IMG/VR virus record: IMGVR_UViG_3300027770_000215
Span: 1-26,897 of that record
From: a virus
Strand: one strand, 5' to 3'
DNA length: 26,897 nt
Position 1 is the stretch's first letter; each line of letters begins with the position of its first letter. Below, piece by piece: positions 1 through 26,897 of this stretch. The position numbers and the translations under genes were made by a program. The notes beneath the pieces are model-generated. The model made no database searches and had not been told where the DNA came from. It was given only the letters and a program-made list of their open reading frames with translations.

Positions 1-189
1 CGTATCCCAGCGGCCGCGAATGCTGAACCCTAATAGGATTTGCAGCGCTGGCTTGCTCAGGGTGTGCATGGTGTGGGTATTCATCCACTCCCCTAGCCGG
101 CGGTTCAGTTCCTTCATGGACCCACTGCGCCGCGGCTGTTTCTTGTTTAGCTTAGTGGGCAATGCGCCCGTGTAGACGCCCTTGCCCAT
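1..189 (-). CDS. Replication wHTH-type protein, N-terminal 63 codons (copy cut by window edge)
   Basis: This is the first 63 codons of the same gene that is complete at 25327-25890; it runs off the left edge of the window. The encoded residues are identical to the full copy, and the two base differences at 13 and 16 are silent. The ATG at 189 overlaps the stop of the upstream primase-helicase as TAATG, so the two are probably translationally coupled. In the circular genome this fragment and 25327-25890 are one gene. See the full-length entry for function. Confidence 0.85.
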   Translation of the reverse strand, partial: MGKGVYTGALPTKLNKKQPRRSGSMKELNRRLGEWMNTHTMHTLSKPALQILLGFSIRGRWDT

Positions 190-1196
190 TACCCTAGAAT
201 CTCAAATTGTTGGTGGGCGCCTGAGAATGCGGTGGTGAAATCCTTTTGCTCGCCGTGGCGGTTCTTCATGCAGCGCCAGGTGATCCGTTTCTTCCCGTTT
301 TCTAGCAGCGACTCGTCTAATGCAATTTCGCCAACGAATAACGAATCTACTTGGTAGTCAATTTCACTTGATTCTTTACCGATGTTGCCTATGCGGTACT
401 CCCCATTCTGTTTCGCCATATTGCTTATTAGGATCACGGCTAAATTGCTACTGATCGCTAGCGCCCGTACGCCACGGATGACGCTATCTATTTCCGTACG
501 CCTGTCAGCGCGCGGGTCTATACCGTTTACCAACTGCAAATAATCTATAACAAGTATACTGGCGCCCGCGCGCTCCACCACTTGCGCCATGTTGGAAAAG
601 TTTAATGGTGGCATTATAATTTTTATTCTGTCGGCGTACGCGTGTAGGTTTGCGGCCACCTCTTGCGCCGCCTCTGTTTTCTGTATTGCTTGGTCTAACG
701 TTACCGGTGCATTGGTATCCCAATTTGCAATTGCGCGCGCGGCTATTGCGGTCTTGGTCATTTCGCCTAGGCACCACGCGGAAACTAAATCAGGGTTGGC
801 GCGTGTTGCATCAAGCACAATCTGTAGCGCCAGCGCGCTCTTGCCAACGCCCGGCGCGCCTGTGAAGCAAACCAACTGGCCACGCTTCAGCCCGCCTAGC
901 GCAATGTCTAGCCAGGTATTCGTTTCAATGGTGGGAAGCTCTTTACTGTGTAGCCACTCATGGATGCAACCCGCTAGTGTGTCAGCTTGCGCGGTATCCG
1001 TGTCATCAAACACTGGCGCCGTGTCCTCAGCGCGGTCCATGATCGGCGTACGCTCTTTACCAAAGGCGTTGCGTATTTGGCGTGGTAAATCTGCAAGCCC
1101 GTCAGCGTCCAAGCCCAGCGCCGCCGCCTGAACCATGAGTAGACGCGCGGCGTGTTCCCGTTCCCACCCGCGCGCGTGTAAATCGCAAGCCACCGT
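1..1196. repeat. Left copy of imperfect 1196-bp terminal duplication
   Basis: Bases 1-1196 align to 25702-26897 at a constant offset of 25,701 with no indels. I count about 47 mismatches by eye: two at 13 and 16, one at 498, and the rest between 584 and 1195. The reading frame of the primase-helicase is kept throughout, and most changes are silent. This is the signature of a circular or circularly permuted genome whose assembly ran past its start, with the two ends taken from different strain haplotypes. It is not a fixed phage terminal redundancy, which would be identical. Confidence 0.9.
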
Positions 1197-1877
1197 GAAC
1201 ACCGTTTGGCGGCGCCCTGCGGGCAAACAATAACCCGTTTCTAGGAAACGCCGGCTCAGCGCGCTCATGCTTTGGGTTGCTATCTTTGCTTCCTCAAATT
1301 CCAACACTTCATAGACCCGCCCCGCGTCCACTTCAATTAACTTGGCGCGCGGCTGGGTGGGGTACTTCCAATTTATAAAGCCAGGCAGTCGCATGATGCG
1401 CGGGAAATCCACCACCGCCTTATCGCTGCCTAGGCGCGCCGCTAAACTTTTCTGTAGTTGCGTGAACGTCTTGGCGTCCGTAATCGGCTCGCTCAAGCGC
1501 CACCACGCATGGCACCCGTTGCCTGTTTCCACTATCACAGTTGGCGCCGGCAGGTTGGAATCAGTGATACGAATTTTCGCCTGTTCAACACTTGTACCAC
1601 CGTCAAAATCCGCAAACAAACAGCGGGCGAACAGTACTCCGTCGAGGGTACTGCCGCCCGCCTTCTTGCGGGGATTAGCGCCGAAGTAGGCATGGGTCCT
1701 ACGTGCTTCGTCGTTGAATACCACCGCTAGTTTCTTAAGCGCTTCCGCTACCGTCGCAAGCGTAACCCACTCGCTTTGCCCAGCGCCAGGTAGCGGCCGC
1801 AGTTCAATTATATCTTCAGCGCTGAATATAGTTTCGAGGAATAATAACGCCTCATAGATTTGATCTTCAGTTGGCAT
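189..1877 (-). CDS. Primase-helicase fusion (AEP-type primase plus DnaB/RecA-type helicase)
   Basis: 562 aa replication protein, probably both priming and unwinding the phage DNA in the cytoplasm. The N-terminal half looks like an archaeo-eukaryotic (prim-pol) primase: an acidic DFD motif near residues 90-92, a G-C-H motif near 121-123, and a FPRIMRLPG segment near 158-166 that carries the third motif. The C-terminal half is a DnaB-like RecA fold: Walker A GAPGVGKS at 340-347, Walker B ending ILVIDYLQLV at 441-450, then the typical hydrophobic strand LAVILISNMAK. Such fusions replace separate primase and helicase in small phages and plasmids. The start ATG at 1877 lies inside the end of the tiny upstream gene, and the stop overlaps the next gene as TAATG. 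A second, strain-variant copy of the C-terminal half is at the right end. Function by motif, confident; substrate details inferred. Confidence 0.88.
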   Translation of the reverse strand: MPTEDQIYEALLFLETIFSAEDIIELRPLPGAGQSEWVTLATVAEALKKLAVVFNDEARRTHAYFGANPRKKAGGSTLDGVLFARCLFADFDGGTSVEQAKIRITDSNLPAPTVIVETGNGCHAWWRLSEPITDAKTFTQLQKSLAARLGSDKAVVDFPRIMRLPGFINWKYPTQPRAKLIEVDAGRVYEVLEFEEAKIATQSMSALSRRFLETGYCLPAGRRQTVFTVACDLHARGWEREHAARLLMVQAAALGLDADGLADLPRQIRNAFGKERTPIMDRAEDTAPVFDDTDTAQADTLAGCIHEWLHSKELPTIETNTWLDIALGGLKRGQLVCFTGAPGVGKSALALQIVLDATRANPDLVSAWCLGEMTKTAIAARAIANWDTNAPVTLDQAIQKTEAAQEVAANLHAYADRIKIIMPPLNFSNMAQVVERAGASILVIDYLQLVNGIDPRADRRTEIDSVIRGVRALAISSNLAVILISNMAKQNGEYRIGNIGKESSEIDYQVDSLFVGEIALDESLLENGKKRITWRCMKNRHGEQKDFTTAFSGAHQQFEILG

Positions 1878-5213: not shown

Positions 5214-5711
5214 TTACCCGCCACTTAATTTATGAATGATGCTTTGCGCCACGCCCGCCACCGCGCCCACCGCGCTGGCAACGGTGGCGCCGCTGCCTGG
5301 CACTGGACCCCATCTAGCCGGCGTCAACGGGCAAGACGCCCCTGCCAGTGTCACTTTAACGCTTAGCTTGGCGCGCTTGTTGGCGCCGCATGAACAGCGC
5401 CGGCACCACCCCACCGTATCCGTTTGCCCCTTGTAATCCGTGGCGCGATGCTCGCACCCCATGCAAGTGGCCAGGCGCGCCGCGGCGTCCGCCTCACTGG
5501 CTGGCCCTTCAGTGGCGTGTGTCAATTCCACTAACGCGTATTCCTTCGCTAGTTCAAGCTTAGACTTTTCGGCGTCTATCAAGGCGCCACTTACTTGGCG
5601 GTGCGGGCATTGCAAGCAAACGCCTAACGATGGCTGGCCGCCGTAATGACCAGCCGCGCAACAGCCGCCGCTCGGTATTCCGCATTGGGTCCAGTGGTCG
5701 CAAGTGATCAT
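5214..5711 (-). CDS. Cysteine-rich, probably metal-binding protein, end of late operon
   Basis: 165 aa with cysteines in zinc-knuckle-like arrays: CDHWTQC near 4-10, a CC pair near 17-18, CLQC near 32-35, CMGC near 83-86 and CRRCSC near 103-108. The C-terminus (SGATVASAVGAVAGVAQSIIHKL) is a Gly/Ala amphipathic or membrane-associating helix. ATG 5711 overlaps the previous stop as ATGA. Last gene of the late unit, after the lysis-like cluster. Proteins of this cysteine-rich type recur near tail and lysis genes of environmental phages without a proven role. I cannot assign function; structural zinc binding is inferred from spacing. Confidence 0.7.
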   Translation of the reverse strand: MITCDHWTQCGIPSGGCCAAGHYGGQPSLGVCLQCPHRQVSGALIDAEKSKLELAKEYALVELTHATEGPASEADAAARLATCMGCEHRATDYKGQTDTVGWCRRCSCGANKRAKLSVKVTLAGASCPLTPARWGPVPGSGATVASAVGAVAGVAQSIIHKLSGG

Positions 5712-6310
5712 GTAATAGTAAGTATTAAAGGATTAGGAGTACCGCCAATAATTGTTAGATCAATAGTAGCTGGTACTTCGCAAACATTATTCAAAGTTAA
5801 AAATCTACTACTAATTAAATTGTCATAGGTACCACTTACGCAACTAATACAGTTTCTTGTGGTTCCCCAAAAATAACTATTCCCAACGCCGCACAAAAAA
5901 TCGTTTGTAATTCCATCACAGGAAGTAAGTTCTGTTATTGTGCGAGTAGTCGAACACAAATTACAGGCTGGTAATGTTGCGGAATCTGGTAGTGAATATG
6001 AAAAATAAGCCCTGCAATTTATTTGGCATGACCATCCAGGATTTACTATATATGGATATAATATAAAAAAATTAAAATAGACATTAGTCGTACAACCTGA
6101 TACGGTAGTTGTTCCTATATATATAGAGTTAATTCTATATACAATATAATTTTGATTATTAGGAGTAGTAGTAAAACAACATTTGTACGCTACAACGGTT
6201 TGAGCTGTAATACTGTAACCACCGGTTAGAGTCCATGCGGGAAAAGAAATAGAAAAGCTAGATGGTAAACAATTACAAACAGCCCCAGACGTACAACAAA
6301 TTCTACCCAT
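5708..6310 (-). CDS. Secreted-looking or virion cysteine-rich protein, AT-rich gene
   Basis: 200 aa from ATG 6310 (an ATG at 6337 is in frame but overlaps the previous gene and has SD too close). It holds 16 cysteines, including CC at both 5-6 and near 44-45, spread through a Thr/Ser/Ile/Tyr-rich, beta-strand-like sequence without charged stretches. This suggests a disulfide-rich beta protein outside the cytoplasm, or a metal-stabilised virion spike. The DNA is strikingly A/T-rich, unlike the GC-rich genes on both sides, which suggests separate acquisition. The neighbour downstream is also cysteine-rich. Candidate receptor-binding tip, host-derived surface protein, or lysis accessory; not recognised. 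Confidence 0.65.
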   Translation of the reverse strand: MGRICCTSGAVCNCLPSSFSISFPAWTLTGGYSITAQTVVAYKCCFTTTPNNQNYIVYRINSIYIGTTTVSGCTTNVYFNFFILYPYIVNPGWSCQINCRAYFSYSLPDSATLPACNLCSTTRTITELTSCDGITNDFLCGVGNSYFWGTTRNCISCVSGTYDNLISSRFLTLNNVCEVPATIDLTIIGGTPNPLILTIT

Positions 6311-6315
6311 TAGAC

Positions 6316-6837
6316 TCACTTGGCGCCCGCCTTCCATGCCGCCTGAAATAGCGGGTCGCTAGCGATTTTAGCGGCCACAAATTCGCGCGGCGTGGCGGCG
6401 TCATCGCTTAGCATTTTGCGCGCTAGGTCCGCCTCTTGACGTTTGCGCTGGGGCAACCACCCTACTAAAATTCGTAGGAATTGACCGGCGCCGCTTTGCC
6501 AAAATAGGAAAGCCAACGCCGCGCAAACCACCGCCGCGCTCAGCCAAATAGCAACAGTGATTAGCGGGTTTTGTATATCGCGTACGCCACTCACGGCCAC
6601 CGTTATATCTGACGTTTCAGCCAGGATGGCCAGCGCGTCAGCCTGGATGCCCGTAGCGGCCTTGATTGTGTCCGGCTCGACTGAGTGGGTGGTAATCCAC
6701 TCCGCGCGCGTGTAGACAGAATGCGCCAGCGCCGCCGCATGGTCCGCGCTGGTTGCAATTTGCCGGCTAGCTGAACAGCCAGCGCACAAGGCGCCGGCAA
6801 CACAGATAATAGCGTTTAGTCTTTTGGGCCAAACCAT
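6316..6837 (-). CDS. Lipobox plus transmembrane protein, spanin-like
   Basis: 173 aa. The N-terminus MVWPKRLNAIICVAGALCAGCSAS reads as a basic start, hydrophobic core and lipobox-like CAGC with the lipidated Cys near 21 (Cys rather than Leu at -3). A second hydrophobic helix near 92-113 (LITVAIWLSAAVVCAALAFL) is followed by a basic stretch and a 55-residue hydrophilic tail. A lipoprotein anchored to the outer membrane and also crossing the inner membrane is the logic of a unimolecular spanin, though classical ones have almost no tail after the TM. Placement beside two small membrane proteins supports a lysis cluster. Implies a Gram-negative-type envelope if correct. Confidence 0.6.
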   Translation of the reverse strand: MVWPKRLNAIICVAGALCAGCSASRQIATSADHAAALAHSVYTRAEWITTHSVEPDTIKAATGIQADALAILAETSDITVAVSGVRDIQNPLITVAIWLSAAVVCAALAFLFWQSGAGQFLRILVGWLPQRKRQEADLARKMLSDDAATPREFVAAKIASDPLFQAAWKAGAK

Positions 6838-12065: not shown

Positions 12066-12412
12066 GTTGCAATTTCTCTGCAAATGAAATTTAAAGTGTG
12101 TCCCTCGCTCCGATAGTCCAGGGCGCTGATAATTTCAAACGTGGCGGTAATGGTGGCGTTATTAGCATCCCTGCTAATCTGCGCTTCAAACCGGTCATAG
12201 GATTTAATACCAGGGTAAAAGTTGCAGGTGATTTTGTGGGTAACCACCATGTTTAGTTTTAAGTGGTTTAACTTTTCTTCCGCGCTGGCGTCCGTGATTT
12301 GACCGAACAGCTGGGTAGTCCCGCTGTAGCTGGCTACGCTCTGACCGTAAACGCTTGTGCTGTTAGCCCGTACCTTTAGCACCAGCGGGGTACGCATAAG
12401 ACCCGGATTCAT
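12062..12412 (-). CDS. Head-tail joining/adaptor protein (gp16/head-closure-like)
   Basis: 116 aa, beta-barrel-type: MNPGLMRTPLVLKVRANST at the start, then TTQLFGQITDASAEEK and strand KITCNFYPGIK with a C-terminal strand region. This is the usual pattern of the phage head-tail joining family. It is between the gp8-like connector and gp10, overlapping both neighbours as ATGA. Confidence 0.75.
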   Translation of the reverse strand: MNPGLMRTPLVLKVRANSTSVYGQSVASYSGTTQLFGQITDASAEEKLNHLKLNMVVTHKITCNFYPGIKSYDRFEAQISRDANNATITATFEIISALDYRSEGHTLNFICREIAT

Positions 12413-13014
12413 ACATAGTTACCATTGTTATATTGCGAAATCAAATTTTTAATAGTTGCATTGACCGTAATAGCTACTGGACTCATGGACGCGCGGAATT
12501 CATACAGCGTTGCTATCTGCAATAGAATTGCGTGTTTCAGCGCTTCGGGAACTAGCGCGGCGCTGGCGCCGTAGCCAGCGGTATATACCACCGTTATAAC
12601 GCCCTCCCCGCCATTATGTAAATCACTTGGCCAGTTTGCGGTATCGCGCAAAAGAATGCGCCCCATCCCGTTGTAGCTCTTTACAATGTAATCCGTGGAC
12701 GCGCTTAGCGTGGTAGTTACTGAGGCGGTATTAACATAGGTAACGCTAGTCACACTAACCAGCGGGCTACGCGGTAACACAATTTCGCGCGCCACTGGCC
12801 AAGAATCAAACACCGTGGTAAATCCAGTATTGGGAATTGGTCCGCGTATTTCGTTTTCAATCATCAGGCGGGCGGTGGTAATTAAACCGCTGCCTACGCT
12901 GCCTGTTCCAAATGTGTCATTATCTAGGCTGTGATAGACGCGGCAGTGTGTTTTCGACACAGCCAGGCTAATCGGCTCGAAACTTGGCGCGGTGGTTACG
13001 GTGGTGTTTAGCAT
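12409..13014 (-). CDS. Head-tail connector protein (phiE125 gp8 / HK97 gp6-like)
   Basis: 201 aa. The pattern EPISLAVSKTHCRVYHSLDND, then LITTARLMIENEIRG, a strand YIVKSYNGMGRILLRD and VTYVNTASV match the phiE125 gp8 family of connectors that sit on the portal. C-terminal helix PEALKHAILLQIATLYEFR is also typical. ATGA/TAATG overlaps on both sides. Confidence 0.8.
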   Translation of the reverse strand: MLNTTVTTAPSFEPISLAVSKTHCRVYHSLDNDTFGTGSVGSGLITTARLMIENEIRGPIPNTGFTTVFDSWPVAREIVLPRSPLVSVTSVTYVNTASVTTTLSASTDYIVKSYNGMGRILLRDTANWPSDLHNGGEGVITVVYTAGYGASAALVPEALKHAILLQIATLYEFRASMSPVAITVNATIKNLISQYNNGNYV

Positions 13015-13295
13015 TAGGCGAATACCCTCATAGGTGTGGTTGGCGCCGGGTCAAGTATGGGTAGCTCGTCTAGTTGGTCTTGGGTTAGTTCTCCGCATAC
13101 GCGTAGGTTGGCGTGGTAGCGGGAATCAACTACATCACCATCGGAATAAATTGAGCCAATGAAATCAATGTCCACGCGGCCGCCGTCCCATTGCCCGATG
13201 ATGTCGCCGCTGGCGTTGCGGGTTGCGACACCCGCCGCAAGCAAGCACGATTCCATATTTGACTTGGTCGATGTGCGTAGAAAATAGTCGATCAT
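13014..13295 (-). CDS. Small unknown head-module protein, 93 aa
   Basis: 93 aa from ATG 13295, which overlaps the preceding stop as ATGA; a longer frame to 13430 would overlap the lectin gene by 139 nt and is rejected. Sequence is acidic with beta character (VDIDFIGSIYSDGDVVDSRY). It ends in TAATG with the connector gene. Not recognised; may be a small adaptor or decoration. Confidence 0.6.
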   Translation of the reverse strand: MIDYFLRTSTKSNMESCLLAAGVATRNASGDIIGQWDGGRVDIDFIGSIYSDGDVVDSRYHANLRVCGELTQDQLDELPILDPAPTTPMRVFA

Positions 13296-14596
13296 GTGGA
13301 CATCGCAATCAGTTGCGCGCTGGTCAGCGCGGTTGGGTAATACTTGATTTGGCGAATACTGCCATTTAAAACCGTAGTTAAATCTGTCAACGTTGAACCA
13401 TCTGTACTGGTTCCACCCAAGACAAGCCATGTAGGCGCCACGCTAAACGCAATCGCTGACGATGTGGCAACAGTCCCACCATTCAAGCAAAGATTAACGG
13501 TGGTTGTTGCACCGTCAAAGTTAAATGCGCCCTTGGTTCTTGCGCCGCTTGTGATTGTGTTGGCAGTTGAAACGCTGTGCGCCGCTCCAAAATCCGCAAC
13601 CTTTAACGCACCCGCTGCGCTGACCTGTTGCAAATGCAAATGCTTAGTTGTTTGATCGCTAGTTGAAATGACGCTGCGAACTGTCGAAGTAATTCCGCGC
13701 ACGCCTCCGTACCAATCCACAAAGAATGTGCCTGTAGTTCCACCTGTAAACCAACTTGAGAAGTTGGTGCTGGTCATTAACGCAAGGTCGGGGTTGCGGG
13801 TTACTGCACTGTTTAATGTTTGAATTGTAGATGATGCCGCGCTACCCGCTTCTACTTGGATTCCCCAAATATATACACCTTTGGTTCCATCTCCAGCATA
13901 TGAAACTCCGTAATTTCCTACCATAGATTCATAAACTTGAAATTGTAAACTAAAATTAGTTTGAGTTGCGGTGGTGGTGGTAGTCAATGAAATTTTATAC
14001 CAACCGTTGCCATAAGAAATGGGTGACGAAAATGTACCTCCGCCGCTCATTGTTGAATGCACCGCTCCGGTTGAAGCGTTTACAGTTCCGCCTATGACAC
14101 CTTCCGTATTATCCCAGCAAGTAATAAAATTATAACCTTTGGTTTTATAAAAAAATGAAAGTGTGTATTGTGTGCTTGCAGTCAAACCCGAAATTGTTTT
14201 AGCAATTCTATGCGCTGCGGAATTAGTAGTATTTGGAATTAAAAGTTTATAACTTGTGGCTGTATTGTCAGGAGCTAAATCTGCATCCTGCACAACTGTC
14301 GAAATTAAATTTCCAGTCCAGTTATTTAATTGATAACTATATGTAGCTAAATTTGTAGCTGATCCCTCAATCAACAACCCCTTAGCCGCCAGCGTCGTCG
14401 GGTCATATTCAAACCGAGCTTCGTTTGCCACGGCCGCAGTGACATAGCCCGATGAATTGATGTAGGTCGCCGTGTTCGCTGATCGTGTCAGCACCACGCG
14501 GGAATCCAAAGAGCCACTTGTAAAATCTAAATTCAGCGTGGAACCATCGCCCTTGCGGCGGAACAAGAGCGCCGCGGCGGCGTTGCTTCGGCTCAT
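13292..14596 (-). CDS. Lectin/LamG-type adhesin encoded in the head module
   Basis: 434 aa. The first 90 residues carry the common phage adhesin pattern: LDFTSGSLDSRVVLTRSANT, TYINSSGYVTAAVANEARFE, YDPTTLAAKGLLIEGSATNL. Residues ~90-255 form a carbohydrate-binding-module-like beta sandwich (ASTQYTLSFFYKT... IWGIQVEAGS), and residues ~290-430 a LamG/concanavalin A-like jelly roll (TTGTFFVDW ... LNGSIRQIKYYPTALTSAQL). Such proteins are usually tail fibres or tailspikes. Here the gene lies between the major capsid and the connectors, so it may be displayed on the head and bind glycans. Thr/Ser-rich, without coiled coil or protease motif. ATGA overlaps both sides. Confidence 0.75.
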   Translation of the reverse strand: MSRSNAAAALLFRRKGDGSTLNLDFTSGSLDSRVVLTRSANTATYINSSGYVTAAVANEARFEYDPTTLAAKGLLIEGSATNLATYSYQLNNWTGNLISTVVQDADLAPDNTATSYKLLIPNTTNSAAHRIAKTISGLTASTQYTLSFFYKTKGYNFITCWDNTEGVIGGTVNASTGAVHSTMSGGGTFSSPISYGNGWYKISLTTTTTATQTNFSLQFQVYESMVGNYGVSYAGDGTKGVYIWGIQVEAGSAASSTIQTLNSAVTRNPDLALMTSTNFSSWFTGGTTGTFFVDWYGGVRGITSTVRSVISTSDQTTKHLHLQQVSAAGALKVADFGAAHSVSTANTITSGARTKGAFNFDGATTTVNLCLNGGTVATSSAIAFSVAPTWLVLGGTSTDGSTLTDLTTVLNGSIRQIKYYPTALTSAQLIAMST

Positions 14597-14793
14597 CGCT
14601 TAACGCCCTTCCTGGTCGCTGTGCGTGGCGCCAGCTGTGTGGCGCTTCGTAAATCGTCGCTACTGTCGGCGCGCTCGCAAACACCCGTAGAAATCAATTC
14701 TATGGCTTCCGCTTCGCTCACCGTTAGTATAGTTCCAAGTGGAAAAACTTCAGCCAAAGTGCTACCCGCCTTTATTAGTTTGACGTTTTCCAT
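14593..14793 (-). CDS. Small protein after major capsid, 66 aa
   Basis: 66 aa from ATG 14793, with GGGGGA 5 nt upstream; a TTG at 14805 in frame is less likely. Begins MENVKLIKAGSTLAEVF, has an acidic middle and a basic end RTATRKGVKR. The SD lies inside the right arm of an 11-bp hairpin. It may be a small head protein or linker; position only. Confidence 0.6.
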   Translation of the reverse strand: MENVKLIKAGSTLAEVFPLGTILTVSEAEAIELISTGVCERADSSDDLRSATQLAPRTATRKGVKR

Positions 14794-14798
14794 GAAAT

Positions 14799-14826
14799 CC
14801 CCCAAGCGCGGTTAGGCGCTTGGGGG
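14799..14826 (-). promoter_or_regulatory. 11-bp hairpin after capsid gene that buries the next SD
   Basis: Arms 14799-14809 (cccccaagcgc) and 14816-14826, perfect, loop of 6. The arm next to the gene carries the GGGGGA Shine-Dalgarno of the 66-aa gene. It lies 32 nt after the capsid stop. Likely lowers downstream translation and/or protects or partly terminates the capsid message; the trailing T-run is weak. Confidence 0.6.
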
Positions 14827-14858: not shown

Positions 14859-16109
14859 TTAAGAGGCCGCACACTTCAAAGCTTTAAACGCAAGCGCTGG
14901 CAGTGTGAGAGCAATATCGACGCGATTTTGGAAAAGGTAGCCAGTTTGATTTGCGTCAGCGTATCGCTCACGAAGGGTTTTCATCTCAAAATTACTGCGT
15001 TGACCAATCACGCAATTATTTTTAAACGAACCAATCAAGCCAATAATCTTATTGGCGCCGACTGAATCCAAGCCAGCGGTAATATAAACTGGAATACCCA
15101 TCAGGCGGTCCGGCTCGGATTGATCCGTTGAATTAACCCACAAGAGATTAGTCAAACCGTTTGCGATATTTGGAAGCTGTCGAATCAATGAAGCAGTATT
15201 ATCATTGATAAGAATTACGGCATCTTTGCGGTATTGTCGCGGCAATGCATAAATCCAATCAATCACTTGCTTGGTTGTTGGACCAGTAATAACACTTGCG
15301 CTAGTGGTCAACGCCGCATCGGTTGTAATACCAACGGGTTGATTACTTGCGCCTGTACCTACAAGGAAACCAGTTTCCTCAGTTTCAGCGAGAATACGCG
15401 CGGCTTGCTCTGCGATGATGCTTTGCATATTGAAACTACGGGCGTTGGCATCCTCAATTAACTCGTTGGAAACCTTCAACAAACCCGCCAGGCGCTTAGG
15501 TGTAAGCGTTACGGCGGTGTAGGTTGGCGAGCTTTCTGACGGGGCTGTAGCTTCCGCGGTCCAGCCCGCAACCATTTGCGTGGCTTCCACGGCCACATTG
15601 CGTTGAAAACTGCCGCAATTCATAATTTTGCTTCCGCAATTTCGGACCGCATTTAGCGTCTGAATCTTGGCGGTCAACTGTGCATCATATTCAACTGGCG
15701 GAATAACCGTACCACCTTGGCCCGATGCTTCACCCAACGCTCTAATAAATTGTGGCGCTGTGTGTTCACCGTTGCGAAGATATTGCTCAAACGCATAGGC
15801 GTAACTTTCGGTGCTACGGATTTCCCATTGCTTGTTCAATTGTGCTTCACGCGCGTCGATTACCTTTGCAGACTCGCGAACCACTGGCGCGCCTGGAGTA
15901 TTCTTAGCGGTATTTTCCATGCCCATCAATTCCTCATTGCGCGCCTTTTGTGCGCCAAGCGTGGCGTAGGTTGCCTTGAGAGAATTATACTGAGCTTCTT
16001 GCTCAGTTGACATTCCAGCGTCCATTGCATTTCCAGCCTCTACCAATGCTGACATTTCTTGGTAGACCTCGCCCATCTTCGTCAACACTGTTTTGTAATC
16101 ACTAGCCAT
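14859..16109 (-). CDS. Major capsid protein 2, HK97 fold with N-terminal scaffolding (delta) region
   Basis: 416 aa. The first ~110 residues are a charged helical delta-like domain with a coiled coil, ahead of a likely protease cleavage area. The mature part begins ~FEQYLRNGEH, then GGTVIPPVEYDAQL, strands LLKVSNELIEDA near the E-loop side, ETGFLVGTGASNQPVGI, and an A-domain ending in ERYADANQTGYLFQNRVDIA. All are hallmarks of HK97-fold capsids. Strong SD AAGGA in a leader of its own. The gene directly before it encodes another capsid protein of the same fold, so this phage has two. Confidence 0.88.
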   Translation of the reverse strand: MASDYKTVLTKMGEVYQEMSALVEAGNAMDAGMSTEQEAQYNSLKATYATLGAQKARNEELMGMENTAKNTPGAPVVRESAKVIDAREAQLNKQWEIRSTESYAYAFEQYLRNGEHTAPQFIRALGEASGQGGTVIPPVEYDAQLTAKIQTLNAVRNCGSKIMNCGSFQRNVAVEATQMVAGWTAEATAPSESSPTYTAVTLTPKRLAGLLKVSNELIEDANARSFNMQSIIAEQAARILAETEETGFLVGTGASNQPVGITTDAALTTSASVITGPTTKQVIDWIYALPRQYRKDAVILINDNTASLIRQLPNIANGLTNLLWVNSTDQSEPDRLMGIPVYITAGLDSVGANKIIGLIGSFKNNCVIGQRSNFEMKTLRERYADANQTGYLFQNRVDIALTLPALAFKALKCAAS

Positions 16110-16135
16110 TGTTCATTCCTTATAAAAGTTCAAAC

Positions 16136-16194
16136 ACCGCGGTAATATCATTGCTTCAACGCGAAGCGTGATACCTACCGCGGTGGTAGGTATC
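16136..16194 (-). repeat. Hairpin and repeated accgcggt palindromes between the two capsid genes
   Basis: Perfect 10-bp stem gatacctacc (16170-16179) / ggtaggtatc (16185-16194), loop of 5, starting 10 nt after the stop of capsid 1. The palindrome accgcggt occurs at 16136-16143 and 16177-16184. No long U-run follows, so a processing or stabilising element is more likely than a full terminator. May set the ratio of the two capsid proteins. Confidence 0.55.
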
Positions 16195-16203
16195 TATGAA
16201 AAG

Positions 16204-17214
16204 TTAACTCCGTGTAACGTTTAATACTCCAGCTGCATTTAGTAAGGCGCCATCGGCGCGCACACTTCCTACGAATAATGTCTGATTTGTGTCCGCAAAA
16301 GTTTCGTCATATCGCGCCACGCTAAACCCGCCAACGTTCGTGGCCAGTAAATACTTTGTGAAATCGGCGAAGCACACTAGCGGCTCACCGCTGGCGATTG
16401 AAGCGTTGGTAGTCAAGCGTTGGTATACCACTGGCAAACCTTCGTATACCGTTCCCTCTTTCATGGCGCCGCTCATTGTTGGGAATAGGATGGGGTACGC
16501 TGACGGGTCCCATGAACCTAGCGCGCGTGAATTAACCACCGCTATGCTGTTGCGCCAACTCTCATAGTCCATAGGTGAATCTGTGCTTGCGCCTGAAAGC
16601 CACGCGGCGCTCAACACGTCTTTAATCGTGTTGGTTGTAGCCACGCCTGTGGCGGCAGTGCGCGCGTAGTTGCGCGCTGAATTGTAAACGCCTTGGCATT
16701 CCGTGCTACCAGCGCCCACAACCATTTGGCGATTGATTTCGTTAATCATTTTGGAAGTAAGTTCACGCTGCAAGAATGCTTCGACGTCTTGCCCAGCTTG
16801 CGAATCGTTAAGCAATTCGTTAGAAACCTTGACCCATGAAGTAACCTTATTCAAGCTAAAGGTGTATTCCGTAACGCTGGTGCCGGTGCCTTGCGCTGTC
16901 TTGGTAAACAACGGGCTACCACCCGTTCCTAAACTTGCTTCAGCCACTCCAGTGTTCAAAGTATTGTTTGTGGTAAGCACTGGCTGCGTAAAGCTAGTGG
17001 TGGTTTCAACGCGCTGGACGCGCGATAGCAAAGTGTCCTGAGTCATGGCATTATCAATGAACGTGGCCCATGAAGCGCCAGCGATTACAGCGCCGCCAGC
17101 GCCTACGGAAATGGCGCGAGTTTCAGCGTCAGTAAGCATATTGCGGCCGCGCAAAAGGTACTTACTGTAAATTGCTTGGTAATCTTCGGATGCTGTGTCA
17201 AGTGGTTTGTTCAT
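16204..17214 (-). CDS. Major capsid protein 1, HK97 fold without long scaffolding domain
   Basis: 336 aa from ATG 17214, with CAGGA 7 nt upstream (frame opens further to 17292 without SD). Near residue 45 it begins mature-capsid-like sequence (RAISVGAGGAVIAGASWATF). Also visible: LNKVTSWVKVSNELLNDS, a GAGSTECQGV loop, PILFPTMSGAMKEGTVYEGLPVVYQR, and a C-terminal ARYDETFADTNQTLFVGSVRADGA closely echoing ERYADANQTGYLFQNRVDIA of the next gene. The N-terminal prefix is only ~45 aa, so it lacks the ~110-aa delta domain of capsid 2 and would rely on it or on another scaffold. Could form pentamers or a second capsomer type, as T4 gp24 does beside gp23. Confidence 0.85.
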   Translation of the reverse strand: MNKPLDTASEDYQAIYSKYLLRGRNMLTDAETRAISVGAGGAVIAGASWATFIDNAMTQDTLLSRVQRVETTTSFTQPVLTTNNTLNTGVAEASLGTGGSPLFTKTAQGTGTSVTEYTFSLNKVTSWVKVSNELLNDSQAGQDVEAFLQRELTSKMINEINRQMVVGAGSTECQGVYNSARNYARTAATGVATTNTIKDVLSAAWLSGASTDSPMDYESWRNSIAVVNSRALGSWDPSAYPILFPTMSGAMKEGTVYEGLPVVYQRLTTNASIASGEPLVCFADFTKYLLATNVGGFSVARYDETFADTNQTLFVGSVRADGALLNAAGVLNVTRS

Positions 17215-17355: not shown

Positions 17356-17386
17356 AACTATACTTGCAGTTTACGCAAGTATGGTT
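17356..17386 (-). terminator. Hairpin at the end of the protease gene
   Basis: Arms aactatacttgc (17356-17367) and gcaagtatggtt (17375-17386), 11 of 12 paired plus a wobble, loop of 7, touching the protease stop codon. It precedes a 170-bp non-coding stretch (17215-17385) before capsid 1. The remainder of that stretch has a candidate TATACT box ~30 nt before ATG 17214 but no clear -35. Probable separation or processing of capsid message. Confidence 0.45.
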
Positions 17387-17928
17387 CAAAACTGAGGCGG
17401 CAAGTATACGCGTCGCTTTTGTTTGGGTAGTTCCCGAACCTGAACCTCGGTATTAGGATTTGCGGGAAAGCAAACTAGACTTAGTTCCATCAGCTTCGCG
17501 CGTTGGATTTTGCGTGTGGGTTTTGCCGCCCCCTTTTCTCTAATCATTACTTCCTGTTCGCATATAAATCCAAAACTGCATTGATTATAAACGCCAGCGC
17601 CTACCAAGGTGTGTACCTCTCGCGCGCTAGGTGTATCCAATAGGCTACACTCAAAGCCTAAACCCACCTCGTCCGTGAATACCCGTAGGTTGCCGGCGCT
17701 CACGCGTCCAAGTGGTTTGCTAGTGTCATGGTTCCAGAGCAAAACAATACTAGGATTATCTTTACTGGCGTCGAAACAGTCAGCCGCAAGGGTTTCCCAA
17801 CAGTCACCCATGTCATAAGGGTTATTAAACTTGGCGGCATAACCTCCGATTTTCAGAGGTTCGCCCGGCAGTGGTTCGCTGCTTGCATTTAGTTTTACCT
17901 GTACTTCTTTTCGTGTTTCAATTTTCAT
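17386..17928 (-). CDS. Prohead protease (S78 family)
   Basis: 180 aa. Catalytic His in the LLWNHD motif (His67) and Ser in YNQCSFGF (Ser118), with ELSLVCFPANPNTEV near the end, as in HK97 prohead proteases. Expected to cleave capsid delta domains during maturation. Starts 10 nt inside the portal gene end. Confidence 0.87.
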   Translation of the reverse strand: MKIETRKEVQVKLNASSEPLPGEPLKIGGYAAKFNNPYDMGDCWETLAADCFDASKDNPSIVLLWNHDTSKPLGRVSAGNLRVFTDEVGLGFECSLLDTPSAREVHTLVGAGVYNQCSFGFICEQEVMIREKGAAKPTRKIQRAKLMELSLVCFPANPNTEVQVRELPKQKRRVYLPPQF

Positions 17929-19879
17929 TTGGCGCCTTTCGGTTTGTTTGGATAATTTCGGAAATCAGCCGGCGCGCTAGCGCTTCGGCGGTGGCGATAT
18001 GCCCTACTGTGTGCCAGTCATCTTTACGGGCGCGCGCCTCACGCTCAATCGTGTCGGCAAACGCGGTGGCGATAGCGGCGCCGTCACCGTCACCTACGCC
18101 ACCCAATAGACTTAACAGCCCCTTGTATATGGGGGAACACTCGGCGCCTAGGCGCGCCACGTCAGGGCGCCAGCGCTGGACCTTGGCGGGCGTCCGGCAA
18201 GACGCCAGGTACTTTGCCTCCGCTTCACACGCGCGCGCCATAGCGGCTTGTGCGCTCGGTAGGAACAGCTCTAGCGCTTTGGTTTCGGCTACGGGCGCTT
18301 CGGGCGCCACAGGCGCCGCGGGCGCTGGCGCCGCTTTGGTTGGCGCTGGCGCTGTTGCGTTGACGCCAGCCAATACCGCGTCCACCTTTGCGGGGTCAAG
18401 CGCTGGGAAACCCGCAAGAATTAAAGCCTTGCCAGCTTCGCTGGACAATACGCCCGTTGACACGCTCCCAAGAATTTCCAAAATGCTTGCAATTTGTGCG
18501 CCGTTGAGGGCGGTATCGGCGATAATAGGCGCGCTGTCGGAAGGTGCCGGCGGTGGCGTGGTTTGTGTCCCGGTTTCACTTCCTTGTTCCGGCGGGACAG
18601 TTCCAGCCGCCGCCGGCGTTTGACCGTCAGGCGCCGCGCCTGGCGTTGTGGTGTTCAGCGGTACGCGCACTGTGTCCCCGCTTTCGCCAATGCTCGGCAA
18701 TGATTCCAACGCCCGCGCCTCATTGACAGTGAGTAGGCCTGTAGTTAAACCAATGTTATACGAGCTGTAACGGCTGGCGCGGTCACCCCGCTGTAAATCG
18801 TCAAAATTTATACGAGTATAATAATCGCTGCCGCGCTTAAATAGTTTGCGGTTTACTTCCTGCTCTATAATGCTGGCGTAGTTGGCAAGCGTCGAACTGA
18901 TAAACGCCGCCTCACCTTGCTCTTGTGAGGAGTAGGAAATACTTTCAGTGGCGCCAATCTTAAACGATGGGACGCCAAAGGCGCTGGCGATCTGCGCCCG
19001 GCAATACTTGCGGACGTCAATCATCTGATTTTCTACCATGTTCGTCGACACGGGATTAAACGTAAGGCCGTTTTCTAGCACTGCAATGCGCCCGCTGTTA
19101 AATACTCCGCCCTGCTGTTTCTGCCATGACTCGCGCAATCGCCCGGCTGCTTCAGCGCTCAGGGTGCCTGCCATCGTTAGTATACCGCTTGGCCTTGCGC
19201 TGTTGGCGAAAAATCTAGCAACATATTCCTCCAGCGCCAATTCCTGAGCAATTAAGTTACGCATCGCCGCGATTGGCGCCATGCCTAAAATGCCATCGCC
19301 GCCCGTGGCGGTCAGGCAATGTAAAATATCAAACGGGCGGAACATTCTCTGTTTGACTGAATCGCTCGCCTTCTCACTCACTGACCCAGAATAATATTGA
19401 TAATACGGCTGGTTGGATTGGTCGCGCTGCATGAACATATAATCAGGGCGCAAATGCTCTAGCGATACCGCTTCACCCGCGGCGTTGCGCTGAATAAAAC
19501 TGTAGCTGTTCCCGTATAAACATAAATCGGATACGGTCAATTCTCGCCACGTGTGGGCCGTTTGGTCTTCGTTACTTTCCACGTTGAGTAGCCCGTAAAT
19601 ACTGTGTTCTTTATCAGGCTCGGCGGTGCCTGTTTCGTAGTCGTTTTCTAGAACCATCCACGGCATACGCGCGATGGTTTGCGAAATTAGTTTGACGCAA
19701 GCGTAAACGCTCGGCGCGCTCATCGCATTCTCAGGCGTTACGGTTATATTGCTTGTGCTGTAATCGCTCAGATAACTCTGAATACTCGGCCCCACTGGCA
19801 TACCGATTTGAGTATTTTCCTCGAAGTCAGCCCGCGGGGGAGTCTTAAAAGCGCGTAAGAATAAATCTTTCAGAGCCAT
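17918..19879 (-). CDS. Portal protein with long C-terminal extension
   Basis: 653 aa. Residues 1-400 are an HK97-family portal: NAMSAPSVYACVKLISQTIA, LTVSDLCLYGNSYSFI, FRPFDILHCL, AFGVPSFKIGATES. After the usual end near LTVNEARALESLPSIGESGD comes a ~250-aa extension. It has a Pro/Ala linker, the known portal add-on motif DTALNGAQIASILEILGSV with PALDPAKVDAVLAGV, another Ala/Pro linker, and a helical end domain RTPAKVQRWRPDVARLGAE that is not recognised. Its stop and start overlap the protease and terminase genes. Confidence 0.88.
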   Translation of the reverse strand: MALKDLFLRAFKTPPRADFEENTQIGMPVGPSIQSYLSDYSTSNITVTPENAMSAPSVYACVKLISQTIARMPWMVLENDYETGTAEPDKEHSIYGLLNVESNEDQTAHTWRELTVSDLCLYGNSYSFIQRNAAGEAVSLEHLRPDYMFMQRDQSNQPYYQYYSGSVSEKASDSVKQRMFRPFDILHCLTATGGDGILGMAPIAAMRNLIAQELALEEYVARFFANSARPSGILTMAGTLSAEAAGRLRESWQKQQGGVFNSGRIAVLENGLTFNPVSTNMVENQMIDVRKYCRAQIASAFGVPSFKIGATESISYSSQEQGEAAFISSTLANYASIIEQEVNRKLFKRGSDYYTRINFDDLQRGDRASRYSSYNIGLTTGLLTVNEARALESLPSIGESGDTVRVPLNTTTPGAAPDGQTPAAAGTVPPEQGSETGTQTTPPPAPSDSAPIIADTALNGAQIASILEILGSVSTGVLSSEAGKALILAGFPALDPAKVDAVLAGVNATAPAPTKAAPAPAAPVAPEAPVAETKALELFLPSAQAAMARACEAEAKYLASCRTPAKVQRWRPDVARLGAECSPIYKGLLSLLGGVGDGDGAAIATAFADTIEREARARKDDWHTVGHIATAEALARRLISEIIQTNRKAPNEN

Positions 19880-21501
19880 TTTAGATCGTTGCTTTCATAA
19901 ATTGAGGGTGTATTATTTTCCGCATCCTTTGAACACATACACGCGAGCGCTGTTACTAACGCGCTACACGCGTCTATCCGTTCCGTTGACTTTGCTTTAC
20001 TCGGCTTACAATTAGCGGCCGCGTCCAGTTCCAAAACCGTATTACTTACGCACCAGTCAAGCACCACGTTCGCTGGGTGCTTCAGCCGTCCACTCAAAAT
20101 TAAACTCTCTAATTTCTTACACGGCTCCGACATTGTTCGGAAACCTTGCCGCACTTCAACCATTTTAAACCCCTGGCTTTGCAACGTGGTTGCCAACATC
20201 GTGGCATTCCAAGGGTCATACCCACACAGTATAATAGACTTTGCTATTTTCGCAATTCGTTGCAAAGTATTCACGATGGCGTCATAATCCACCACGTCCC
20301 CGCTGGTTGCCTCTAGGTGGCCGCGCTCGCGCCAATCCTCATACGGTACGCGGTCTAATTTCGCGCGGCGGCGTATACCGTTTTCGGGGCAGAAACTGAA
20401 AGGAATACACGTTACATTTTCTTCCTCATCCGTGAATATACAAGCTATGGAAGTAAGGTCCACGGTGGTGCTGAGGTCCATTCCGATATACAGATTTTGA
20501 CCCGCCAGTGATTCAATGTCTAAGCCTGGCACCGCGCAAGCGTTCCAGCTCTCGGCGCTGATCCATCGCGTTTCGCTTTCGGTCCACTGGTTTAAATACA
20601 GCCGGCGAAACTGCGAACTATAACCCGTCAGCTCTTGCGCTTTGGCGTGTTCGGCGCGCAAGAATTCTAAACTCACTGACACGCCTAGCGATGGGTTACA
20701 TTTTGCCCACACCTTTTCGTCGTGCCAATCATCGTCTTTTTCCGCCCCCCAAATCACGGGCAAGAATGCTGGGTCTTTTACTATACCCTTGCGGACATGA
20801 TCCGCATACTGATGCAGCTTCCAACATAACGAATTCTTGTCATGCCCCGCGGTGGTTATGCTTAGTATAAGTGGTTGCGCGCGCGCGCCCACACCCGTTA
20901 CCAAAGCGTTGTATAACTCCTCGCCCGCTGGTCCAAATGTATGGACCTCATCCAGTATAATAGTGCTACAACTTTTGCCGTGCTTATTGGCTGCATCGCT
21001 GCTGATTATATCCAGGCGTCCCGCGTTATCTTTAGACGATATGGTGTTCCGCATGACCTCGACGCATTCGCTCAGCGTCTTGGAATTCTTTACCATCATG
21101 CGCGCCGTGTCACCGCATACCGCCGCCTGGTCCCGGCTACTTGCGGCTATCACTACTTCGGGTGCATTCTCGCCGTCAGCTAACAAGCAATATAATCCCA
21201 CCGCGGCCATCATCGTGGTCTTTCCATTCTTGCGTGGTATTTCCACAAAAGCATTTCGATAGCGCCGCGTCCCATCCTCGCGCATCCACCCGAACAGATT
21301 AGATATAAACGAGTGTTGCCATGACTCTAAGATAAATGGCTTACCCGCCCACTTGCCTTTATAATGGGTTATGTGGGTTTCAAAAAACCAACACGCATTT
21401 TCTGCCCGCTCATTATCGTAGTAGTCCCCTGGCGCCGCGGTGGCTACTGGGTCATAGCCTGGAATATTCTTGGGGCAAACAATCTTACGTTTTCTTGGCA
21501 T
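19870..21501 (-). CDS. Terminase large subunit, HK97-like
   Basis: 543 aa packaging motor. ATPase: adenine-type segment WQHSFISNLFGW near 61-72, Walker A PRKNGKTT near 89-96, Walker B IILDE near 181-185, coupling motif SITTAGHD near 214-221. Nuclease: first acidic motif GMDLSTTVDLT with Asp342 and last acidic DACSAL near 518. The small subunit is the P27 type, as in HK97-like cos phages; the upstream repeat region may be its target. Starts 17 nt inside the small subunit gene. Confidence 0.9.
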   Translation of the reverse strand: MPRKRKIVCPKNIPGYDPVATAAPGDYYDNERAENACWFFETHITHYKGKWAGKPFILESWQHSFISNLFGWMREDGTRRYRNAFVEIPRKNGKTTMMAAVGLYCLLADGENAPEVVIAASSRDQAAVCGDTARMMVKNSKTLSECVEVMRNTISSKDNAGRLDIISSDAANKHGKSCSTIILDEVHTFGPAGEELYNALVTGVGARAQPLILSITTAGHDKNSLCWKLHQYADHVRKGIVKDPAFLPVIWGAEKDDDWHDEKVWAKCNPSLGVSVSLEFLRAEHAKAQELTGYSSQFRRLYLNQWTESETRWISAESWNACAVPGLDIESLAGQNLYIGMDLSTTVDLTSIACIFTDEEENVTCIPFSFCPENGIRRRAKLDRVPYEDWRERGHLEATSGDVVDYDAIVNTLQRIAKIAKSIILCGYDPWNATMLATTLQSQGFKMVEVRQGFRTMSEPCKKLESLILSGRLKHPANVVLDWCVSNTVLELDAAANCKPSKAKSTERIDACSALVTALACMCSKDAENNTPSIYESNDLKWL

Positions 21502-25373: not shown

Positions 25374-25890
25374 TTAGGGGCGTCCCTTTGTATATACTTG
25401 TAAGTACATTTGTAAGGGGTGTGACTGTATAGCCCCCTGTTCGTGATAGTATAGCCCCCTGTTCGTGATTATATAGCCCCTTCGGTACCTTTGCTGGGTC
25501 GGTTAATTCATAGGTTGCGGACTCGATTCCTTGGCGTTTTTTTATCACAATGACTACCCCCTTTCGTATTAGTTCCTTGAACCCAATCGAAATTCTGCGG
25601 TGATCTACCCCGCCTTTGACGCCTAGAATTACACCTTTATTTTCGTGCAATGCGGCGCCGTACTGGGTGGCTATCGCCTTGTGGCCACAGCGCCACTGGC
25701 ACGTATCCCAGCGCCCTCGAATGCTGAACCCTAATAGGATTTGCAGCGCTGGCTTGCTCAGGGTGTGCATGGTGTGGGTATTCATCCACTCCCCTAGCCG
25801 GCGGTTCAGTTCCTTCATGGACCCACTGCGCCGCGGCTGTTTCTTGTTTAGCTTAGTGGGCAATGCGCCCGTGTAGACGCCCTTGCCCAT
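25327..25890 (-). CDS. Replication initiator-like winged-helix protein with internal iterons
   Basis: 187 aa. Begins MGKGVYTGALPTKLNKKQPR, then helices MKELNRRLGEWMNT and KPALQILLGFSIRGRW, HKAIATQYGAALHENKGVIL and a wing-like strand VVIVIKKRQGIESATYEL; these form a plausible winged-helix DNA-binding domain of residues ~45-130, as in phage replication proteins. The last third is low in structure and is encoded by the tandem 22-bp iterons. It follows the primase-helicase gene with a TAATG overlap, as lambda O and P are paired. Function by context and fold; family not identified. Confidence 0.65.
   Translation of the reverse strand: MGKGVYTGALPTKLNKKQPRRSGSMKELNRRLGEWMNTHTMHTLSKPALQILLGFSIRGRWDTCQWRCGHKAIATQYGAALHENKGVILGVKGGVDHRRISIGFKELIRKGVVIVIKKRQGIESATYELTDPAKVPKGLYNHEQGAILSRTGGYTVTPLTNVLTSIYKGTPLNGGAPTPQESAAPLD
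25389..25486. repeat. Three tandem 22-bp iterons plus AT-rich flank: candidate replication origin
   Basis: Units at 25421-25442, 25443-25464 and 25465-25486, each gtga..gtatagccccctgttc; the first two differ at only two bases and the third is degenerate at its right end. Because 22 is not a multiple of 3, each repeat is read in a different frame, so the conservation is of DNA rather than of protein. An AT-rich stretch (25389-25415) lies beside them, as a duplex-unwinding element would. Confidence 0.7.
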
Positions 25891-26897
25891 TACCCTAGAA
25901 TCTCAAATTGTTGGTGGGCGCCTGAGAATGCGGTGGTGAAATCCTTTTGCTCGCCGTGGCGGTTCTTCATGCAGCGCCAGGTGATCCGTTTCTTCCCGTT
26001 TTCTAGCAGCGACTCGTCTAATGCAATTTCGCCAACGAATAACGAATCTACTTGGTAGTCAATTTCACTTGATTCTTTACCGATGTTGCCTATGCGGTAC
26101 TCCCCATTCTGTTTCGCCATATTGCTTATTAGGATCACGGCTAAATTGCTACTGATCGCTAGCGCCCGTACGCCACGGATGACGCTATCTATTTCCGTTC
26201 GCCTGTCAGCGCGCGGGTCTATACCGTTTACCAACTGCAAATAATCTATAACAAGTATACTGGCGCCCGCGCGCTCCACCACTTGCGCCATGTTCGCAAA
26301 GTTTAAAGGTGGCATTATAATTTTTATTCTGTCGGCGTACGCGTGTAGGTTTTCTGCCACCGCTTGCGCGGCCTCTGTTTTCTGTATTGCTTGGTCTAGG
26401 GTTACGGTTGCCTTGGTATCCCAATTTGCAATGGCGCGCGCGGCTATGGCGGTCTTAGTCATTTCGCCCAGGCACCATGCGGAAACTAAATCAGGGTTGG
26501 CTTGGGTTGCGTCTAGCACAATCTGTAGCGCCAGCGCGCTCTTGCCTACGCCCGGCGCGCCTGTAAAACAAACCAACTGGCCACGCTTCAGCCCGCCTAG
26601 CGCCACGTCTAGCCAGGTATTCGTTTCAATGGTGGGAAGCTCTTTACTATGCAACCACTCATGGATGCAACCCGCAAGTGTGTCGGCTTGCGCCGTGTCC
26701 GTATCGTCGAACACTGGCGCCGTGTCCTCAGCGCGGTCCATGATCGGAGTACGCTCTTTACCAAAGGCGTTGCGTATTTGGCGTGGTAAATCTGCAAGCC
26801 CGTCAGCGTCCAACCCCAGCGCTGCTGCTTGAACCATGAGTAGACGCGCGGCGTGTTCCCGTTCCCATCCGCGCGCGTGTAAATCGCAAGCCACGGT
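25702..26897. repeat. Right copy of imperfect 1196-bp terminal duplication
   Basis: Counterpart of 1-1196 at offset 25,701. Mismatches are absent or rare up to 26284 and frequent beyond (about 7% from 26285 to the end by eye). Confidence 0.9.
25890..26897 (-). CDS. Primase-helicase, C-terminal part of strain-variant copy
   Basis: The frame is open to the window edge; it corresponds to residues ~229-562 of the full protein at 189-1877. Walker A and B are kept. Seven substitutions are seen, e.g. I325V, R359Q, N389K, P391T, E406A, A409E and S428A, five of them within 389-428. It is not a separate gene, but the same gene from a second strain in the mix. Confidence 0.85.
   Translation of the reverse strand, partial: TVACDLHARGWEREHAARLLMVQAAALGLDADGLADLPRQIRNAFGKERTPIMDRAEDTAPVFDDTDTAQADTLAGCIHEWLHSKELPTIETNTWLDVALGGLKRGQLVCFTGAPGVGKSALALQIVLDATQANPDLVSAWCLGEMTKTAIAARAIANWDTKATVTLDQAIQKTEAAQAVAENLHAYADRIKIIMPPLNFANMAQVVERAGASILVIDYLQLVNGIDPRADRRTEIDSVIRGVRALAISSNLAVILISNMAKQNGEYRIGNIGKESSEIDYQVDSLFVGEIALDESLLENGKKRITWRCMKNRHGEQKDFTTAFSGAHQQFEILG

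Follow-up and report, generated by a model that had tools for sequence, protein, structure and literature searches.

Organization of the head gene module

The stretch of DNA analysed here, referred to as the window, comes from IMG/VR as a virus record 26,897 bases long, and all the relatives examined are metagenomic contigs. The two ends of the record (1-1196 and 25702-26897) overlap with 96% identity over 1,196 bases, with 47 mismatches and no gaps; the record probably represents a genome of about 25.7 kb that maps as a circle, its ends joined through reads from a strain differing slightly from the rest. The head genes lie on the minus strand in the order terminase large subunit, portal, S78-type protease, MCP-A, MCP-B, small gene, adhesin-like gene and head-tail adaptor. 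With its terminase, portal, protease and adaptor this is an HK97-type head-gene neighbourhood, while a lambda-like tail tube protein in the window marks a siphovirus-type phage. Portal and protease genes are present as single copies in the module, in which no separate scaffold gene was seen. The features are as follows.

19870-21501, minus strand: terminase large subunit (PF20441, 2.1e-52; PF03354, 4.5e-29)
17918-19879, minus strand: portal protein (PF04860, 3e-90)
17386-17928, minus strand: S78-type prohead maturation protease (PF04586, 1.2e-36; phrog_80, 1.4e-41)
16204-17214, minus strand: MCP-A, HK97-family capsid protein without a delta region, 336 aa, class I allele (PF05065, TIGR01554; kept in all relatives)
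16110-16203, minus strand: structured A-B spacer RNA, overlapping and mutually exclusive hairpins upstream of the MCP-B start (z -4.5; covariation; four diverged types)
14859-16109, minus strand: MCP-B, HK97-family capsid protein with an N-terminal delta-like region, 416 aa (PF05065, TIGR01554; profile matches to Rcc01687 and HK97 gp5)
14593-14805, minus strand: small gene between MCP-B and the adhesin-like gene, weak head-tail connector similarity (PF23976, 0.0012, below cut-off; phrog_748, 0.038; kept in relatives)
13292-14596, minus strand: optional adhesin-like gene, LamG/phrog_5939-like, conserved N-terminal anchor MSRSNAAAALLFRR (phrog_5939, 3.1e-66)
13014-13295, minus strand: small gene, start MIDYFLRT, alongside the LamG-like gene in several relatives (phrog_18574, weak)
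12409-13014, minus strand: head-tail adaptor, the downstream marker for measuring the insert (phrog_442, 1.3e-22)

Elsewhere in the window, a single protein (189-1877, minus strand) fuses a RepB-type primase domain to a DnaB-type helicase domain, and a cysteine-rich ORF of 209 aa (5708-6337, minus strand) has no Pfam match. In the portal gene (window 17918-19879; L030:1993-2896), the C-terminal part varies in length and sequence among close relatives, the remainder being conserved.

MCP-A and MCP-B are diverged HK97-family proteins and only MCP-B has a delta region

The initial annotation had proposed two HK97-type capsid genes back to back, and the coordinates that it gave for them are exact. 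Both products belong to the HK97 family, with matches above the curated cut-offs to PF05065 (MCP-A 5.4e-23, MCP-B 8e-45) and to TIGR01554, major_cap_HK97 (MCP-A 1.5e-26, profile positions 83-380; MCP-B 8.6e-60, positions 11-384 of 385). The proposal that the delta region is restricted to MCP-B is borne out by the same profile, since MCP-B spans its whole length while MCP-A enters at the point where delta ends. The signatures said to be common to the two proteins are also found (VKVSNELLND / LKVSNELIED and RYDETFADTNQT / RERYADANQT), and all 12 class I MCP-A proteins in alignment A3 match PF05065. Pairwise similarity between MCP-A and MCP-B is weak (23% identity, E 0.006); profile alignment with hhalign places residues 7-328 of MCP-A on residues 98-404 of MCP-B, a full-length match with a probability of 98.3%.

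Profile searches with MCP-B retrieved the gene transfer agent capsid Rcc01687 (1.8e-41) and HK97 gp5 (3qpr, 8.9e-7), the latter match taking in the N-terminal delta region. The best PDB profile match of MCP-A was 9gyi, which is not significant (E 0.1), and the AlphaFold2 models were unusable: predicted from shallow alignments, with just 6-7 near-identical sequences each, they had pLDDT values of 30 for MCP-A and 35 for MCP-B. Against the T4-type Gp23 family (PF07068) MCP-A scored 21.7 bits (1.5e-4), under the cut-off of 24.4 bits, and MCP-B gave no match. The sole match to encapsulin families, to family 3, was insignificant (E 0.036), and with terminase, portal and protease as neighbours the genes belong to a phage head module rather than to a cellular, cargo-bearing encapsulin operon.

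The two capsid genes form an obligate pair in one phage lineage

The relatives were collected from IMG/VR through searches with progressively wider alignments, and each contig was counted once. Every MCP-A gene with enough downstream sequence (72/72) is directly followed by MCP-B within 300 nt. Seen from the other side, in the 93 full-length B-type capsids whose upstream sequence exceeds 1.5 kb, MCP-A precedes MCP-B in 58/58 cases scoring at least 350 bits and in 0/35 of the more distant capsids below 233 bits. The search for the pair in other phage genomes, which had been proposed as a check, finds gene order and delta loss kept in every relative examined. As in a pair of the T4 gp23/gp24 type, two diverged HK97-family proteins are encoded together in one phage. 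In a tree that includes single capsids of other phages, MCP-A forms one clade (100/100) and MCP-B a separate one (99/97), and dN/dS values of 0.02-0.25 indicate purifying selection on the two genes. Pairing, separate clades and purifying selection together show that the A-B pair marks one large uncultured phage lineage.

A redundant or decaying copy is rejected, both genes being under purifying selection, and a recent tandem duplication is not supported, as MCP-A is a clade of its own on a long branch; old duplication and acquisition both remain as origins of the pair. One contig has MCP-B split over three reading frames downstream of an intact MCP-A (L142:5656-6961), which is either a sequencing error or a broken gene.

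Among the 50,697 phage records of GenBank, MCP-A has at best about 28% identity to any protein, with one place per record, and MCP-B reaches 32% identity, or 36% over part of the protein; two records show two places for MCP-B. In GTDB genomes class I MCP-A has no match and a mixed MCP-A profile matches with only 22-25% identity, so that no host was identified.

A structured RNA separates the genes in part of the lineage

The hairpin reported between the two genes is genuine: the 94-nt spacer of the window folds more stably than shuffled sequences, with a z of -4.5, relatives that have the element give -2.6 to -5.2, and the structure covaries across them. Two spacer hairpins covary, with 23 double-changed cells versus 6.6 in shuffles (0/500). 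The 5' hairpin overlaps a long-range stem, so that the two are mutually exclusive, and four diverged types of spacer sequence show this arrangement of alternative hairpins. The loop GCGUU(G) is conserved in the spacer hairpins (window 16110-16203, minus strand; L016:5712-5809; L027:5601-5698; L150:1377-1477). Rfam has no match for the element. An intrinsic terminator between the genes was considered and rejected, a terminator scan having found none there.

A separate Shine-Dalgarno-like sequence precedes each of the two genes (AGGA and AAGGA), in line with the separate leaders first described. The independent dosage of the two proteins derived from these features is weakly supported: the RNA element is real in the part of the clade to which the window belongs, but it is missing from clades in which MCP-A and MCP-B are 15-24 nt apart. 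The conserved, structured spacer is consistent with separate control of the two genes, and the element is a possible RNA switch controlling MCP-B.

MCP-A is an exchangeable cassette

Close relatives with nearly the same MCP-B can carry highly divergent MCP-A proteins. Protein identities are 97% for MCP-B versus 29% for MCP-A in L032/L034, 96% versus 25% in L019/L038, 95% versus 31% in L030/L035, 93% versus 28% in L024/L047 and 99% versus 31% in L043/L044. At the nucleotide level the breakpoints are sharp and lie at the ends of the MCP-A gene: homologous flanks reach into its first 10-55 bases, the body has no nucleotide similarity between swapped pairs, and homology resumes at or just past its end. 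In L024/L047, for instance, identity is 95% in the protease, 97% in the upstream leader, 47% (background) in MCP-A, 97% in the spacer, 90% in MCP-B and 89% in the adaptor. Between MCP-A classes the first 48 residues are 45-54% alike, and the middle of the protein, taken as the axial domain by alignment, is least conserved (19-29%). On the MCP-B tree the MCP-A class switches at least 11 times. MCP-A is thus a cassette that is swapped wholesale between close relatives.

A variable adhesin-like gene co-varies with the MCP-A class

The distance from MCP-B to the head-tail adaptor is bimodal, being either 256-268 nt or 1.3-2.2 kb. The long form carries a gene with a mostly constant N-terminal anchor (MSRSNAAAALLFRR or MKGNAYVPFMLRRGDG, with close variants) and a variable body, which may be LamG/phrog_5939-like, weakly carbohydrate-binding-like, GDSL-hydrolase-like (PF13472, 2.1e-8) or glycine-rich (PF21722, 5.3e-22). 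This hypervariable slot is occupied at 13292-14596 (minus strand) in the window, L006:5605-7026, L026:7354-8769 and L164:4898-5755, and is empty elsewhere.

Presence of the insert requires one change on the MCP-A tree (23 contigs with, 28 without) and four on the MCP-B tree. The four independent contrasts are all concordant with the MCP-A class, a number too small for significance (sign test, p = 0.125). The anchor sub-type also tracks MCP-A and not MCP-B: L016 and L024 have the anchor of the window and a sister MCP-A, but their MCP-B proteins come from another clade. MCP-B sits between MCP-A and the adhesin-like gene, so transfer as one block does not explain the link. The product is a probable host-binding protein, for which gene position and co-variation with the MCP-A class suggest a place on the head; its family is annotated as a tail protein, and it may therefore sit on the tail.

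Could the swaps be artefacts of assembly, with contigs wrongly joined at the conserved flanks of MCP-A? These flanks, upstream of MCP-A and between the two genes, are 93-100% identical in the compared pairs, and L043, which is frameshifted at the end of MCP-A, comes from the same metagenome as L044. Such joining would scramble the MCP-A class relative to the insert beyond MCP-B, yet the association is perfect in 51 contigs, and L016, L017, L018 and L020 are concordant although they come from four metagenomes. Most contrasting pairs come from different metagenomes. L043 may be chimeric, while the other four pairs listed above each span different metagenomes; as an account of the swaps in general we regard chimerism as very improbable, and the A-B pairing itself is independent of the swap evidence.

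A proposed two-component head

The explanation that we favour, tentatively and at a likelihood somewhat short of even, is a two-component HK97-type head in which MCP-B forms the lattice and MCP-A separate capsomers, most likely the vertex pentamers, with an adhesin docked on them in some classes and a ratio that the spacer helps to set where it is present. MCP-B, with its built-in scaffold, would build the main lattice, a role suggested by its delta region and by its being the more constant partner, and the S78-type protease would then remove delta from it. Because MCP-A has no delta region it would be unable to scaffold itself and would have to rely on MCP-B, co-assembling with it in separate capsomers made of MCP-A only; these would most likely be the pentamers of every vertex other than the portal vertex. 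That MCP-A makes capsomers of its own is the easiest reading of its full replacement beside a near-constant MCP-B, since most contacts of a capsid subunit fall within the capsomer. The adhesin or hydrolase would dock by its N-terminal anchor on MCP-A proteins of classes I and IV, and the spacer RNA, where present, would help to set the A:B ratio. The copy number of MCP-A, its position and the docking of the adhesin are all inferred.

The main rival of vertex pentamers is a shell of variable composition, in which MCP-A and MCP-B share capsomers in variable proportions and without fixed positions, as in a Family 2B encapsulin. That system provides a precedent with the HK97 fold, in which a component unable to assemble alone is incorporated at 0 to ~60% (PMC12407261), and MCP-A, lacking delta, would likewise need MCP-B. 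The encapsulin pair, however, is highly similar whereas MCP-A and MCP-B are only 23% identical; moreover, MCP-A classes that are 25-31% identical work beside nearly the same MCP-B, while shared capsomers would demand matching A-B contacts. We consider a shell of this kind unlikely.

Less probable still is that MCP-B makes the ordinary head and MCP-A an alternative particle, of a different head size or for conditional use. It would fit such an arrangement that both capsid genes are complete, have a ribosome-binding site each and are separated by a conserved structured spacer, but MCP-A has no delta region and the module no visible scaffold gene to replace it, portal and protease are each encoded once, the pairing is invariable, and some clades have a 15-24 nt gap with no RNA element. 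Host defences that sense phage capsid proteins are established, and MCP-A might accordingly be no shell subunit of the virion but an HK97-derived assembly factor, a decoy or a counter-defence protein whose diversity reflects escape from such systems. Cassette exchange with deep divergence is the trace expected of diversifying selection. Against this stand the full-length capsid homology of MCP-A, its constant place in the head module and strong purifying selection within its classes; besides, immune escape could equally act on a true shell protein. This last reading appears to us slightly more improbable than an alternative particle.

A more doubtful extension, though one we consider possible, makes the head modular throughout this clade of small tailed phages, with a conserved self-scaffolding lattice protein and a delta-less, exchangeable vertex protein that would determine which head-borne adhesin or cell-surface hydrolase is carried. 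If so, swapping one capsid gene together with the adhesin would re-equip the head and leave the lattice protein untouched. Wholesale swapping beside a near-constant partner suggests that an HK97-type shell tolerates large sequence change in one component, and an obligate pair across a clade of ~26 kb phages offers many small natural systems for studying how capsids assign proteins to positions. Should the adhesin dock on MCP-A, the head may take part in host interaction alongside the tail.

Comparison with known capsid systems

In tailed phages this small, hexamers and pentamers are expected from one protein; T4, the textbook exception, is known to build one head from two different HK97 capsid proteins. 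The literature searched, which leaves out most subscription journals, contained no description of such paired genes in a small tailed phage, nor was there a precedent in the GenBank phage records. As far as these searches reach, what is new is an obligate pair in small siphovirus-type phages, its delta-less partner, the cassette exchange and the association with an adhesin-like gene.

MCP-B matches HK97 gp5 and Rcc01687 by profile, for HK97 with the delta region included, but those are single-protein heads, whereas here a second, delta-less protein is always encoded upstream. In Streptomyces lydicus, the two-component Family 2B encapsulin is likewise built from two shell proteins with the HK97 fold whose genes are neighbours; one of them forms no shells alone and enters the shells of the other (PMC12407261). 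It is a non-viral compartment of two highly similar proteins in which irregular tiling has been demonstrated. For the adhesin-like gene, head fibres of the T4 Hoc type, surface proteins bound to particular capsomers (Hoc is present once per gp23 hexamer; PMC9958956), provide a working analogy, with the difference that a head location is here deduced from gene position and co-variation with MCP-A.

The closest working analogue of the pair is T4 gp23/gp24, in which gp24 is the precedent for a vertex protein and is ~20% identical to gp23 (PMC9958956), compared with 23% between MCP-A and MCP-B. Both systems have two diverged HK97-fold proteins per phage and a maturation protease in the same module. 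They differ in that the present phage is small (~25.7 kb) with a siphovirus-type module, that the scaffold is the delta region of MCP-B itself whereas T4 uses a separate core, and that MCP-A lacks delta and is exchanged as a cassette. MCP-A and MCP-B may thus work like the gp23/gp24 pair, yet by sequence neither is a member of the Gp23 family.
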